NCBI RefSeq assembly: GCF_040448695.1 | Contig: NZ_CP159307.1 | Span: 868,001 to 932,000 of the forward strand | Source of the DNA: Dehalogenimonas sp. 4OHTPN | GTDB lineage: Bacteria; Chloroflexota; Dehalococcoidia; Dehalococcoidales; Dehalococcoidaceae | Length of the DNA stretch: 64,000 bases | Direction of reading: 5' to 3' | Translations under genes and position numbers: made by a program | The notes under the pieces: generated by a model | Databases searched by the model: none | Told to the model about the DNA's origin: nothing | What the model saw: only the letters and a program-made list of their open reading frames with translations | Part shown: positions 5,671 through 12,242 of the stretch, one piece after another | How positions within the stretch are numbered: position 1 is the stretch's first letter | Layout of the letters: each line of letters opens with the position of its first letter

Positions 5671-6522
5671 TCACCACAGTCCCGCCGCCGCGGGTATTGC
5701 CGCGCGGCTGACCAGTGTAATGGCGCCGGATGGGCAGGCTGCCCTGCAGACGCCGCAGCCGTAGCAATTGCGTGTATTTACTTTCGTCATCGCTGAAGTG
5801 CGGCTGTATTCAAGCGCGCCGAAGTGGCAGACGCTGAAGCAGTCGCGGCACCCGGTACAGGATTCCTCATCAATGGTCGCGGAGTATTCAGCCCGGAACA
5901 TAACCTTCGTGCTTAGATTGAGGCTGATGTTGAGCGCCTGGCAATCGGCGCGGTCGCAGTTGCAGATGCCGCCGATAAACGGCGTCTGGAAAGTCCAGAT
6001 GGTATGACACAAGCCTTCGTCATCGTGGCGAGTTATTGCGGCTAGCGCCTCTTTCGGAGATAAGACTTCAAATCCGGAGGTATCCGGCCCATTAAGAAAA
6101 GTTCCATCGAGTTCCGACAGGATCTCAAGGATTTTGCCCCCGCCGGGGGCCATTGACAACCCGTAACAATACCGGGCTTCGGTTTTAAGCTTCGAATAGC
6201 GGCAGATGCAGGCTAATCGAACCACCGAAGTTGTCATGTTCAACAATTCGGCCACATCTTCTATCGGCAGCACCTGACCAAAATGACTCGACTTTTGGCG
6301 CCCGGAAAGAACCGGCCGGATGATGTTTTTAACCAGTCCCGGTGTTTTATCGAGTGCCGCCAGCCGCTCAGCGCCGGAGGCAATGCCTTCGGGGTGCCGG
6401 AAAAAATCTTCTATATAACGGCGCCGCTTGAGATCGGCCAGCAACTCTTCGGAATAGTTTTCCGCCCTGAGGTACCACTTTTTTCCTTCACCGTGCTGAT
6501 GACAGAACTGGCACATGGGCAA
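5671..6522 (-). CDS. 4Fe-4S dicluster ferredoxin-domain protein
   Basis: A 283-residue protein with a C-terminal bacterial ferredoxin fold holding two cubane clusters, CTGCRDCFSVCHFGAL and CYGCGVCRAACPSGAI. Upstream lie CNCDRADCQAL and CICRYSKLKTEARYC, giving further cysteines that may bind another cofactor or zinc. The N-terminus has CQFCHQHG. There is no signal peptide, so it is probably a cytoplasmic electron-transfer or regulatory iron-sulfur protein. No partner oxidoreductase is adjacent. Similar stand-alone proteins occur in anaerobes, but I cannot assign a substrate. Confidence 0.8.
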   Translation of the reverse strand: MPMCQFCHQHGEGKKWYLRAENYSEELLADLKRRRYIEDFFRHPEGIASGAERLAALDKTPGLVKNIIRPVLSGRQKSSHFGQVLPIEDVAELLNMTTSVVRLACICRYSKLKTEARYCYGLSMAPGGGKILEILSELDGTFLNGPDTSGFEVLSPKEALAAITRHDDEGLCHTIWTFQTPFIGGICNCDRADCQALNISLNLSTKVMFRAEYSATIDEESCTGCRDCFSVCHFGALEYSRTSAMTKVNTRNCYGCGVCRAACPSGAITLVSRAAIPAAAGLW

Positions 6523-6668: not shown

Positions 6669-8338
6669 ATGGATCCAACCCGTATCTCGAGGCGTGATTT
6701 CACCAAACGGATGGCAGTCGTTGGCAGCGGCATCATGGTGTTCGGAGTGATGAGCGCTTGCGACAACGACGAACCAGCTCAGACAACAACTCCAACGGCA
6801 ACCCTCCAACCGCTGCCTGCATTGAAATTCCAATTCTCGGACACTGCGGGCAACCGGACGATCGCCCAATACCTTCAAGGCCAGATGTCTCAGAATATGG
6901 GGATCATATCACTCTGGAGCCAATGGAGTCGGCCGCTTTCCAGAAGTTTGTTAACGAGGAGAACCATACCTGGGCATGGTTCGGCTGGGGCGCTGACTAT
7001 CCTGACCCGGAAAACTTCCTGGATTCGGTATTTATGACTGGTGCCGGGAATAACCACACACTATATTCTAACCCTCAATTTGACACACTGATGACCAATG
7101 CGCTCAAAGAACTGAACAACACCACGCGGCTTCAGTTGATCGACCAGGCCCATAAGATGGTGGTCGAAGATATGCCCATGGTCTTCATGTTCAACCGTGA
7201 ACGCTTCAACCTGGTCAAACCGGCCCTCAGACCCACCCTTAAACCCACCGGCCAAGATGGTCAGATTATGGGCGACCGCTTCTTCCGGCAGGTCAGCATG
7301 CCCAATAACATTCTGCGGGTCAACAGCAGCGGTGATCCCCCTACCCTCGATACCAACGCCGCCTCATGGGCAAGCAGCCTTTCCTGCTTGTATCAGATTT
7401 ATGACGGCCTGTTTAGCTTCGACCAGAACCTCAACGTTCAGGCGATGGTAGCCAGTGAGATCCCGACCACGGCCAACGGCGGCATTTCCGCTGACGGTAA
7501 AACCTACACCTTCAAATTGAAGTCAAACGTTACCTGGAGCGATGGCAAACCTGTTACTGCTCAGGACTTCGAGTACAGCATAAAACGCATGCTGGCGCCG
7601 GCCACCGCCGCTGAATATTCCTTCCTCTATCTCGCTATCGCTGGCGCCGAAGCCTACAATGCTGGCACTGGTCAGGAGAGCGCTGTTGGTGTGAAAGCCC
7701 TCAACGCGACTACTTTGGAGATTAAATTGGCTCAACCACAACCGACCTTTATCTCCAGGATGGCGTTGTGGCCGTGTTACCCGGTTCGCAAGGACATTGT
7801 TGATGCCAAGGGCGCCGACGCTTTCCTGCCGCCCAACCTGATTGGCAACGGTCCGTTTATGTTGACAGAATGGGTACCGCTGGATCACATGACCTTTAAA
7901 GTTAACCCGAACTATTGGGGCACTAAGCCCACTTTGACCGAGATTCGATTCCGCAATATTCCGGATCCCCAGGCATCGCTTGCGGCATACCAGAATAATG
8001 AACTGGATATGTCTGGTGTTCCAGTCGGCACTGAAAAAGCTACCATGGCCGACGCTACCCTTGGAGCTCAGGTCTTCCGCAACGCTGATCTGGTGACCTT
8101 CGGCTTCCAGTTCAACGTCAAGAAAGCTCCTTTTGACAATAAGAAGGTACGCCAGGCTATCTCCTGCGCCATTGACCGCGACACCTTTATCAACAACGTC
8201 AGAGGCGGGGTTGGTCGTGCTACCACTTCGTGGATACCTCCGGGAATGCCGGGCTTCGACGCCAATATCGGCGCCGACTACAAGTTCAACGTTGCCAAGG
8301 CTAAGCAGTTGCTGGCTGAGGGCGGTTACAAAGTCTAG
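6669..8338 (+). pseudogene. oppA: Family 5 oligopeptide-binding lipoprotein, frameshifted and with permuted halves
   Basis: The start is a Tat lipoprotein signal: SRRDFTK twin-arginine motif at residues 7-13 and lipobox VMSAC with Cys31. After a Thr/Pro linker the protein goes directly into what is normally the C-terminal third of an OppA/DppA protein (LKFQFSDTAGNRT, then FGWGADYPDPENF and FNRERFNLVKP). At about 7300 it switches to the normal mature N-terminus (NILRVNSSGDPPTLDTN) and runs through YTFKLKSNVTWSDGKPVTAQ to FNVAKAKQLLAEGGYKV, where it stops at the place the C-terminal third should begin. One base is missing between 6905 and 6906 (GGATCATATC; a G after GATC would restore GIDITLEP). 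With that base restored the protein would be 556 residues, the normal family length. It is either a decayed or rearranged gene, an assembly artefact, or a true circular permutation. Confidence 0.85.
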
Positions 8339-8377: not shown

Positions 8378-8416
8378 GAGCAAGGGATTGGGGACTTCCA
8401 ATCCCTTGCTCTTTAT
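8378..8416 (+). terminator. Hairpin between oppA and oppB
   Basis: A perfect 14-bp stem (GAGCAAGGGATTGG pairing with 8398-8411) and 6-base loop is followed by a short T-rich stretch. It probably acts as a partial terminator or mRNA-stabilising structure that keeps binding-protein mRNA above permease mRNA, as is common in opp operons. Confidence 0.7.
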
Positions 8417-8428
8417 GAATTGAGGTAA

Positions 8429-9346
8429 ATGGGAAAATATATTCTCCGCCGGCTGTTATGGATGATGCTCACCCTCTTCGTGGTGGCGTTCATAACTTTT
8501 GTACTGATGCACCTGGTGCCCGGCGGCCCCTGGGACCGCGAGAAAGAGCTGCCTGCGCAAGTTATCGAAAACCTGAACCAAAAATACGGTCTTGATAAGC
8601 CGCTTTTCGTTCAATTCGGCAGTTATATTTGGAATGCCTTGAACGGCGATCTGGGGATCTCATATATTTACCAGGATCGAGGTGTAACAGACATTATTCT
8701 TGGGGGGTTGCCGGTAACCGCCACTCTTGGTCTGGTTGCATTTGCGCTGGCGATTGTGCTCGGTGTATCGCTGGGAGTTGCAGCGGCGCTTAAACAAAAT
8801 TCGGTCATTGACTATTTTTCAGTGGCTTATGCCACGGTTTTCGCCAGTGTGCCCGCTTTTGTGCTCGGTATTTTCCTAATGTACACCTTAGCGGTCCAGT
8901 TCCACTGGTTCCCAACGGGTGGGTGGGGTACCCTGCAACATATCGTCATGCCTGCAATTGCCCTGGCGGCACTCCCGGCTGCTTACACTGCCCGCATCAC
9001 CCGGGCTTCCATGCTTGAGGTCATCAGGCAGGATTACGTGCGAACAGCAAGGGCTAAAGGTTTAGCCGAGAGAGTTGTGTTATGGCGGCATATCAGCCGC
9101 AACGCCCTTATCCCGGTTGTCACTGTAGCTGGACCCGAATTGGCGGCCCTCGTTTCAGGATCATTCATTATTGAGACTCTGTTCTCGGTGCCAGGCATCG
9201 GCCGCCTGTTTGTTCAGGGTGTTTTCCAGCGTGACTATGGTCTTATTATGGGTGCCATCTTGTTTTATGCTTTCATCATCGCTATCGTCAACCTGGTAGT
9301 TGATATTGTTTATGCCATGATCGATCCGAGGATACGCTATGACTGA
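8429..9346 (+). CDS. oppB: Oligopeptide ABC transporter permease, OppB/DppB type
   Basis: One of the two membrane subunits of a peptide importer. The 305-residue protein opens with the family signature YILRRLLWMMLTLFVVAFITF, followed by the conserved LDKPLFVQFGSYIWNALNGDLG periplasmic segment. Six membrane spans are apparent. The ATPase-docking EAA loop reads YVRTARAKGLAERVVLWRH. It ends with VDIVYAMIDPRIRY, the standard C-terminus. It overlaps oppC by eight bases, so the two are translationally coupled. Confidence 0.95.
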   Translation: MGKYILRRLLWMMLTLFVVAFITFVLMHLVPGGPWDREKELPAQVIENLNQKYGLDKPLFVQFGSYIWNALNGDLGISYIYQDRGVTDIILGGLPVTATLGLVAFALAIVLGVSLGVAAALKQNSVIDYFSVAYATVFASVPAFVLGIFLMYTLAVQFHWFPTGGWGTLQHIVMPAIALAALPAAYTARITRASMLEVIRQDYVRTARAKGLAERVVLWRHISRNALIPVVTVAGPELAALVSGSFIIETLFSVPGIGRLFVQGVFQRDYGLIMGAILFYAFIIAIVNLVVDIVYAMIDPRIRYD

Positions 9347-10268
9347 AGTGGCTGCCGAATTCACACCAGCCCCAGCCAGTGCAAAGGTGTCAGCCCGTCC
9401 GCATCACACCTTGTGGGGTGACGCCTGGATACGACTTCGGCGTAATAAGCTCGCCGTCGTCGGCGGCATCATTATTATCATCATCGCCCTCGCGGCGGTG
9501 CTCGCACCTTGGATTACCGAGTATGATTTTGCCTTCCAGGATTATAGCGCTATACTCCAGCCTCCAAGCGCCCAGCATTGGTTCGGCACTGACGAATTAG
9601 GGCGCGATGTCTTCGCCAGGATGATCTACGGCGCCAGAACTTCCCTGGCGGTGGGTTTATTTACTCAGTTTATTGTTATTTTTGTTGGCCTGCCAATCGG
9701 CGCCTTTGCTGGTTTTATAGGCGGGAGGGTGGACAACCTCCTGATGCGGTTCGTCGATGTGATGTATGCCTTTCCTGATATACTCCTCATCATCCTGCTC
9801 TCCGCCGTCATGCGCGAAACAGACTTCGCCCGCTTCGGCGGCGGTATATTCGTCATCTTTCTCGCCATCGGTTTGGTAAACTGGGTGGGGATTTCCCGGC
9901 TGATCCGCGGGCAGATTCTATCATTGAAACAGCGTGATTTCGTCACCGCCGCCCGCGCTATGGGCGGGGGCAGCCGTTACATCACCTTTCGCCATTTACT
10001 GCCTAACGCTTTAGGGCCGATAATTGTCGCCGTGACTTTCGGTGTTCCAAGAGCCATCTTCGCCGAGGCTGCGTTGTCGTATATCGGGATTGGCATTCGC
10101 CCGCCCACCCCTAGCTGGGGCGCTATGATACGTGACGGCTTTAATGTGATGAACGCTTATCCCCACCTGGTCATCATCCCCGCTATTGCTATCGCCGTAC
10201 TTATGCTTGCGTTTACCTTCCTGGGTGATGGCCTGCGTGACGCTCTGGACCCGAGGTTGAGGCGGTAA
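9339..10268 (+). CDS. oppC: Oligopeptide ABC transporter permease, OppC/DppC type
   Basis: Second membrane subunit of the importer, 309 residues. The cytoplasmic N-terminus leads into WIRLRRNKLAVVGG and the first span, followed by the conserved HWFGTDELGRDVFARMIYGAR motif. The EAA loop is FVTAARAMGGGSRYITFRHLLPN, and the C-terminus LGDGLRDALDPRLRR is typical of the family. The start ATG lies inside the end of oppB. Both permeases look intact, in contrast to the disrupted oppA of the same operon. Confidence 0.95.
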   Translation: MTEVAAEFTPAPASAKVSARPHHTLWGDAWIRLRRNKLAVVGGIIIIIIALAAVLAPWITEYDFAFQDYSAILQPPSAQHWFGTDELGRDVFARMIYGARTSLAVGLFTQFIVIFVGLPIGAFAGFIGGRVDNLLMRFVDVMYAFPDILLIILLSAVMRETDFARFGGGIFVIFLAIGLVNWVGISRLIRGQILSLKQRDFVTAARAMGGGSRYITFRHLLPNALGPIIVAVTFGVPRAIFAEAALSYIGIGIRPPTPSWGAMIRDGFNVMNAYPHLVIIPAIAIAVLMLAFTFLGDGLRDALDPRLRR

Positions 10269-10269
10269 T

Positions 10270-11271
10270 ATGGCACTCCTTGAAGTTAAAAACCTGACTA
10301 CCGAGTTCCATACACAGGACGGCATCGTTCACGCTGTCAACGACGTATCTTTCTCCGTCAACCGCGGCGAACTGGTAGCGCTCGTTGGTGAAAGCGGCTG
10401 CGGCAAAACCGTTAGTTCGCTGTCCATCATGCGCCTGATCCCAGAACCGCCGGGTAAAATTACCAGCGGCAGCATTCTTTTTGAAGGCAAAGATCTTCTA
10501 AAGCTGACCAATGATGAAATGCGCCGGGTGCGCGGCTCCAAGATTTCAATGATTTTTCAAGAGCCGATGACCTCTTTGAATCCCGTTTTAACTATCGGAC
10601 GTCAGCTTACAGAGGCTTTAATACTTCACAAGGGCATGGATAAAAAAGCCGCTGAGGCCGAAGCGGTAAGCTTGCTGAACAAAGTAGGCATTCCGCAGGC
10701 GGAGAAGCGGATCAAGAGTTACCCACACCATTTTTCCGGCGGTATGCGCCAGCGGGTAATGATAGCCATGGCTATTTCATGCCAGCCGAAACTGGTGATT
10801 GCCGATGAACCTACCACAGCGGTGGACGTTACCATCCAGGCACAGCTTCTTGAATTGCTTAAGAGTATTATCCGCGATCTCAACAGCTCGCTTATTCTCA
10901 TTACCCATAACCTTGGCGTGGTGGCTAGGTACGCTCACCGTGTGTATGTGATGTATGCCGGTCGGGTGGTCGAACATGGCACCGCTGCCGAAATCTTTCA
11001 CCACCCACTCCACCCATATACTGCTGGATTGCTGGGTTCTGTGCCGAGGTTGGATGAACCCAGGAAACTTCGTCTGCGTTCGATCGAAGGGCAGCCGCCT
11101 GACTTAATTAGCCCGCCGAAAGGCTGTGCCTTCACCGCGCGCTGCGCTTACCGGCGCGAAGGCAAGTGTGAATCGCTTGAATTTAAAATGGTTGAAGCCA
11201 TCCCCGGACATTTCACCAGTTGTCTGGTAGCTTTTGAGGGAGAAACGCCTTGGCGCAAGACAACGTCCTAG
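10270..11271 (+). CDS. oppD: Oligopeptide ABC transporter ATP-binding protein OppD
   Basis: Cytoplasmic ATPase that drives peptide import with OppF. It has Walker A GESGCGKT near residue 40, the Q-loop [13 protein letters not shown], the ABC signature [11 protein letters not shown], Walker [13 protein letters not shown] and the switch His in [10 protein letters not shown]. The C-terminal peptide-transporter extension has [17 protein letters not shown], whose spaced cysteines suit the iron-sulfur cluster known in this subfamily. The 333 residues are standard. It begins one base after oppC ends. Confidence 0.95.
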
Positions 11272-12242
11272 TAGAAGTAACCGGACTGACCAAATATTTT
11301 CCGATCGCCTCGGGCGGTCTTTTACGCAAAAAGGTGACCGAACTCAAGGCTGTTGATGGAGTGACCTTCGCTGTCCACCAGGGAGAGACGCTGGGTCTGG
11401 TCGGTGAATCCGGCTCCGGCAAGACTACGGTCGGCAAATGTGTTCTGCAGCTTCATCGGCCAACCTCCGGCGAGGTCATCTTCAAAGGACAGGACTTGGC
11501 TTCTTTATCCGAAAAACAACTTCGGTCGTATCGTCCCAAGCTTCAGGTCATATTTCAGGACCCTTACGAATCATTGAACCCCCGTTTCACCGCTTACGAT
11601 ATTATCTCCGAACCGATGAAACTTCACGGGGCTACCAGGACCGAATGTCGGGAGCGGGTGGCCGAACTGTTGAACATCGTCGGCCTGGCGCCTTATATGG
11701 CCGAACGCTATCCTCACGAGTTCTCCGGCGGCCAGCGGCAACGACTAGGAGTGGCTAGAGCTCTGGCGCTGCAACCGGAATTTATCGTCTGTGACGAACC
11801 CTTGTCGGCTCTCGATGTTTCGATTCAGGCCCAGGTGCTTAATTTGCTGGATGACCTGCAGCGGCAGTTCGGTGTGGCCTATCTTTTTATTTCACATGAC
11901 CTGTCAGTAGTGCGCCACATCTCCCATCGGGTGGCGGTGATGTACCTTGGTAAAATTATGGAGATTGCCCCGCGCGATACCTTATACGAAAAACCCCTAC
12001 ACCCCTATACTCAAGCACTTTTATCAGCAGTGCCGGTCCCAGACCCCAGGGTGGAAGCTAAACGGCAAGTCATCCTGCTGCCTGGAGAGCCACCGTCCCC
12101 GTTGAATCCTCCATCCGGCTGCGTTTTTCATCCCCGGTGTCCAAAAGCCTTCGAAGCGTGTTCCTCGGTAGTTCCGCTACTCAACGATGATCGAAACGCT
12201 CATTTTGTAGCTTGTTTGTTATACAAGTCATCCTGGCCGTGA
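11250..12242 (+). CDS. oppF: Oligopeptide ABC transporter ATP-binding protein OppF
   Basis: Second ATPase subunit of the importer, 330 residues. It has Walker [11 protein letters not shown]-loop [13 protein letters not shown], signature [17 protein letters not shown], Walker [13 protein letters not shown] and switch [10 protein letters not shown]. The C-terminal region contains [15 protein letters not shown], a cysteine set like that in OppD. It starts at a TTG inside oppD (22-base overlap) after a GAGGGAG ribosome site, so translation is coupled. It closes the opp operon just before a strong terminator. Confidence 0.95.

Follow-up and report, generated by a model that had tools for sequence, protein, structure and literature searches.

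The gene at 6669-8338 of the window, a 64,000-nucleotide stretch of the Dehalogenimonas sp. 4OHTPN genome, encodes a family 5 (OppA-like) solute-binding protein (SBP) with its C-terminal segment placed ahead of its N-terminal segment and a lipoprotein signal of Tat type in front of both. We conclude that this OppA-like lipoprotein (family 5, cluster C) is very probably a naturally occurring circular permutant, which would have arisen once, in place, in an ancestor of part of Dehalogenimonas, most likely by duplication. The swapped halves and the Tat lipoprotein signal had been described in a first-pass annotation of the DNA, and they were confirmed by the translation, the PF00496 match, the match positions in OppA (PDB 8are), and canonical orthologs. 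All parts of the gene lie on the plus strand. The translated signal peptide (6669-6761; MDPTRISRRDFTKRMAVVGSGIMVFGVMSA-C) contains an SRRDFTK motif and the lipobox VMSA-C, with the Cys codon at 6759-6761; intact homologous signals are present in three relatives, G007, G003, and G004. A Ser/Thr/Pro-rich tether (DNDEPAQTTTPTATLQP; 6762-6812, from the translation) leads from the lipid-anchor Cys to the fold, and the other permuted copies have similar tethers. The new N-terminal block comes next (6813-7300; LPALKFQFSD...GDRFFRQVSM); it is the segment with which family 5 SBPs normally end, and it matches residues 417-493 of OppA 8are and 411-494 of 1b05 as well as the 3' part of canonical orthologs. 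When permuted and canonical orthologs are aligned, the new joint between the old C-terminus and the old N-terminus falls at Pro-Asn-Asn (7301-7309), where the relatives have PNG or PSG. The segment that normally begins the mature protein follows as the new C-terminal block (7310-8338; PF00496; OppA 8are 19-356), running ILRVNSSGDPPTLD...AKQLLAEGGYKV and ending ...KQLLAEGGYKV at 8335, before a TAG stop codon (8336-8338).

Alignment with OppA, which the first-pass annotation had proposed as a check, returned two out-of-order blocks: query residues 131-470 correspond to 8are chain residues 19-356, and query residues 16-92 correspond to 417-493. These match positions are reversed, and the order is therefore inverted in the window SBP. 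There is no overlap between the halves, and each close canonical ortholog matches in two pieces with the opposite order. Once re-ordered, the permuted sequences can be aligned over their full length with canonical orthologs, with no segment missing or repeated, which bears out the earlier description of the two pieces as complementary. The PF00496 match scored 271.5 bits for the window frame P0002 and 296.8 for the intact G007 ortholog, against a cut-off of 32.4. The canonical N-then-C order of segments in SBP_bac_5 is absent from the window SBP; since membership of that family depends on sequence and fold, the out-of-order protein is a permuted variant of it. The conserved Asp of the GADYPDP motif (codon 6995-6997) aligns with Asp419 of OppA (1b05), and in Salmonella OppA this residue binds the alpha-amino group of the peptide (PMC5736914; PMC6305025). 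As called by inspection, the export signals of the permuted SBPs comprise SRRDFTK and a lipobox Cys in the window genome (G000) and G007, and RRDF and a lipobox in G003 and G004. Tat-like signals occur in the permuted copies and in canonical G049 and G011, and Sec-type lipoprotein signals occur in canonical G006, G008, G009, G024, and G054 (L007-L013).

The window gene is frameshifted as sequenced because one base is deleted after 6905. The window reads ATC-ATATC where G007, in which the base is present, has ATCAATATC, and the frame breaks at 6905-6906. The first-pass annotation had given a restored length of 556 residues without locating the lesion; that length agrees with the G007 ortholog, an intact frame of 556 amino acids.

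Among 61 genomes searched, a single colinear match to the whole permuted query was obtained in G007 (99% identity), G003 (71%), and G004 (67%), all three from the same genus, separately assembled, and each in one contig. The normal block order was found in G006 (same genus), in G008 and G009 (same family), and in G011, G024, G049, and G054. Across the order, an ortholog was present in 20 of 156 genomes (4 permuted and 16 canonical), permuted and canonical orthologs being 55-63% identical. No further permuted copy was found among 393 genomes of the class, and a scan of viral contigs for relatives of the window SBP returned none. The possibility that this order is simply normal for the clade holds only at close range: near members of the genus share the swap, but 16 of the 20 orthologs are canonical, and the permutation is therefore derived rather than the clade norm. 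For phylogenetic analysis, permuted sequences were rewritten to the normal order before tree building. In the whole-protein tree, the four permuted sequences (clade A) formed one clade with 100/100 support, nested among canonical orthologs; when the N-block and the C-block were analysed separately, each tree gave one permuted clade among the same orthologs. The permutation is thus stably inherited by the four genomes of this one clade. The clade A proteins also have a GTGQESAVGV loop that, in the alignment, is shortened relative to canonical orthologs. Between the window genome and G007, the SBP genes differ by about 95 synonymous and 8 nonsynonymous changes; the resulting dN/dS of 0.020 is similar to those of permease 1 (0.012) and ATPase 2 (0.026) in the same pair and indicates strong purifying selection on the permuted SBP.

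Downstream on the plus strand, the SBP gene is followed by genes for an OppB-type permease (8429-9346; PF00528, PF19300), an OppC-type permease (9339-10268; PF00528, PF12911 OppC_N), an OppD-type ATPase (10270-11271; PF00005 ABC_tran, PF08352 oligo_HPY), and an OppF-type ATPase (11250-12242; PF00005, PF08352). OppB, OppC, OppD, and OppF were the nearest NCBIfam models, all with scores below the curated cut-offs. The same SBP-permease-permease-ATPase-ATPase order surrounds the canonical genes examined. Upstream, on the minus strand, lies a gene for a 4Fe-4S protein (5671-6522), which also adjoins the canonical gene in G006 and marks the same locus. Inspection of this locus in sister genomes, suggested earlier, thus revealed the same swap in G007, G003, and G004 and a canonical gene in G006. 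A GAAAGATATAATAG stretch lies upstream of the SBP gene in the window genome, G007, and G006. An inverted repeat between the SBP gene and the first permease gene (8378-8411, plus strand) forms a hairpin with a fold energy z of -6.2, and a strong hairpin in this place is present in the window, G003, G006, and G011, canonical operons included. Given the shared gene order, upstream gene, and flanks, the permutation most likely took place inside an existing transcription unit. Different families of the order keep this very stable hairpin in the same position (L011 and other canonical loci) and share part of its sequence (GCAAGGGATTGG...CCAATCCCTTGC).

Duplication is a recognised route to permutation (PMC3320104) and would explain the window gene. 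A fused tandem SBP copy with C1-N2 in its middle would have formed at the existing opp-type operon and lost its outer pieces, leaving the signal peptide ahead of the C-terminal segment; the N-terminal segment would have gained a new stop at its end. The old termini are now joined by a tight three-residue turn, and the new termini lie in a domain III loop (about OppA residues 354-358). No duplication intermediate turned up in the window lineage. The one tandem fusion of two family 5 domains that was encountered, in an unrelated regulator-like protein of Chloroflexota (L114), shows that such fusions occur.

Mis-assembly and a deletion between tandem copies had both been raised as alternatives in the first-pass annotation. 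That a mis-assembly or cloning artefact swapped the halves is a general possibility, and the window copy is also frameshifted; but the same order recurs in four separately assembled genomes whose proteins have diverged by up to 33% (at most one-third of residues), and the joints lack any repeat that would mislead an assembler. Mis-assembly is therefore ruled out, with a residual likelihood that we regard as negligible. Repeats at the joints were likewise uninformative as a trace of mechanism. The single colinear match to the swapped order in these same diverged genomes, which supports circular permutation, also counts against a chance deletion product. Deletion between tandem copies would leave the swapped order and is itself part of the duplication route, but the reading that such a deletion between unrelated SBP copies made a non-functional chimera is contradicted by the placement of both halves with the same ortholog set, by complementary blocks with nothing missing or repeated, and by long-term purifying selection; we regard such a chimera as very improbable. 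Fission of the gene and re-fusion of two half-genes is, like duplication, a route recognised in general (PMC3320104). However, split SBP halves were not noticed among the genomes examined, and the gene has retained its promoter-side and hairpin flanks, so this origin appears unlikely and circular permutation through duplication remains the preferred reading.

Lesions in the permuted operons bear on a further alternative, that the permutation was once functional but use of the operon has recently been lost, with the SBP and transporter genes now becoming pseudogenes in individual strains. Of the four permuted operons, three contain one lesion each: the frameshift in the window and two in-frame TAG codons, one in permease 2 of G007 (codon 74; L037, gene 8723-9652) and one in ATPase 2 of G003 (codon 269; L038, gene 6218-5229, minus strand). 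In the five canonical operons checked, all four transporter genes were free of in-frame stops, and streamlining of genomes has been reported across the genus (PMC13390414). Against decay, dN/dS stays at about 0.02 down to the G000/G007 pair, no lesion was seen in the G004 operon, the lesions strike different genes, and nothing ties them to the permutation itself. They could be sequencing errors or mutations that arose in culture, and early decay is also possible; as a general account of the permuted operons, we consider decay somewhat unlikely. Pyrrolysine amber recoding was rejected as the reason for the two TAGs, as no PylS scored above the cut-off in the genus. The lesions lower confidence in a working transporter in every strain and leave the reality of the permutation untouched.

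A scan of the phylum with the permuted query gave one more colinear match that was clearly permuted (G335, query 23-467), and the same permuted form was found in seven genomes of another Chloroflexota lineage (clade B: G335, G538, G540, G558, G564, G570, and G728). The clade B proteins resemble the window SBP in being permuted family 5 SBPs with a short turn linking the old termini and, where the start is present, in having a lipoprotein signal. They differ in that this signal is of Sec type and the cut lies about 45 residues past that of the window, within a loop between two cysteines in canonical relatives (new N-terminus ...GLGAQCTYNAYRMGWVMDY; new C-terminus ...MEWGAYLEVLDSCND). Both loop cysteines are kept in clade B and could, as a disulfide, tie the new termini together. 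Because clade B branches separately in the tree, permutation must have originated at least twice, and this independent recurrence suggests that the fold tolerates cuts in the domain concerned. The G335 gene (L060 7371-9071, minus strand) is within an opp-type operon. A third permuted form was observed in a MAG, G614 (L113 4419-6206, minus strand; 595 amino acids), between two ATPases and two permeases, with the cut in an NSG...VGVKA loop. This SBP groups with clade B (100/99) and adjoins G728 (95/92); such nesting suggests, from one MAG, that a gene already permuted was permuted again. A second copy of the G614 form was absent from the 120 relatives searched. Very large, extracellular-looking Chloroflexota proteins (L102, L103, L104, and L105; open frames of over 1200 to over 2500 amino acids) have a family 5 SBP domain beside repeat regions and lie near clade B in the tree; they were rejected as permutants, as their SBP domains are canonical within large multi-domain proteins. 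Nor are the SARP/AAA-like regulators L114, L115, and L116 permutants; they have C-terminal family 5 SBP domains, two in tandem in L114.

Alignment to Salmonella OppA (1b05) placed the cuts at about residues 354-358 in the window SBP, 402-408 (about 405) in clade B, and 130-135 in G614. OppA domain I comprises residues 1-44, 189-269, and 487-517, domain II residues 45-188, and domain III residues 270-486 (PMC6305025). The window and clade B cuts thus fall in domain III and the G614 cut in domain II, and both old termini are in domain I. With the new termini in domain III or II, the lipid tether would leave domain I, moving to domain III in the window and clade B proteins and to domain II in G614. 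A joint as short as PNN would be expected if the first and last strands are neighbours. The permuted SBP would fold into the usual bilobed, three-domain cluster C receptor and may bind peptides, dock, and deliver them to the downstream permeases and ATPases. The AlphaFold model of the 474-residue frame P0002, built from a shallow 13-row alignment and with 31 residues missing, was of low confidence, with a pLDDT of 60.5 and a pTM of 0.54.

Compared with OppA/DppA SBPs (family 5, SBP_bac_5, cluster C, type II), the window SBP retains the PF00496 match (272-297 bits), all segments, the Asp419 equivalent, the lipoprotein signal, and an operon with OppB/C permeases and OppD/F ATPases, but has a permuted order, with new termini and, by prediction, its lipid tether on domain III. 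A natural permuted, lipid-anchored SBP of an ABC importer is already known in TpMglB-2 (Tp0684) of Treponema pallidum, for which a crystal structure and function in vitro were described, and whose authors raised a possible relation of topology to membrane anchoring (PMC4990184). Like the window SBP, TpMglB-2 is common to a group of related bacteria. It differs in class, being a type I cluster B sugar SBP ("type Ic / cluster Bc"; PMC4990184), and in its cut, which moved the first three strands of one lobe to the C-terminus; the window SBP lacks a type I (cluster B) sugar-binding sequence, the Pfam and PDB matches listed for it being family 5. Other natural permutants, including swaposin and DNA methyltransferases, are of the same evolutionary kind and explained by duplication (PMC3320104), but their folds and functions are unrelated to those of the window SBP. 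The open-licence literature searched yielded no account of circular permutation in a family 5 SBP.

Pfam labels the permuted proteins as ordinary SBPs, and such cases can therefore pass unnoticed. Circular permutation is rare in nature, and most cases come to light only long after they happened. In the present case, sister species have permuted and normal orthologs in the same operon, and a second lineage is cut elsewhere. It is possible, though on balance doubtful, that the repeated permutation of Chloroflexota family 5 SBPs (at least two origins and a re-permutation) reflects cuts that were favoured as the tether leaves domain I, in which case anchor placement would be evolvable and selected. 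The permuted SBPs also provide templates from which permuted OppA scaffolds for biosensors could be designed, and the natural matched pairs allow one to ask whether the position of the anchor on an SBP matters for docking to its importer.
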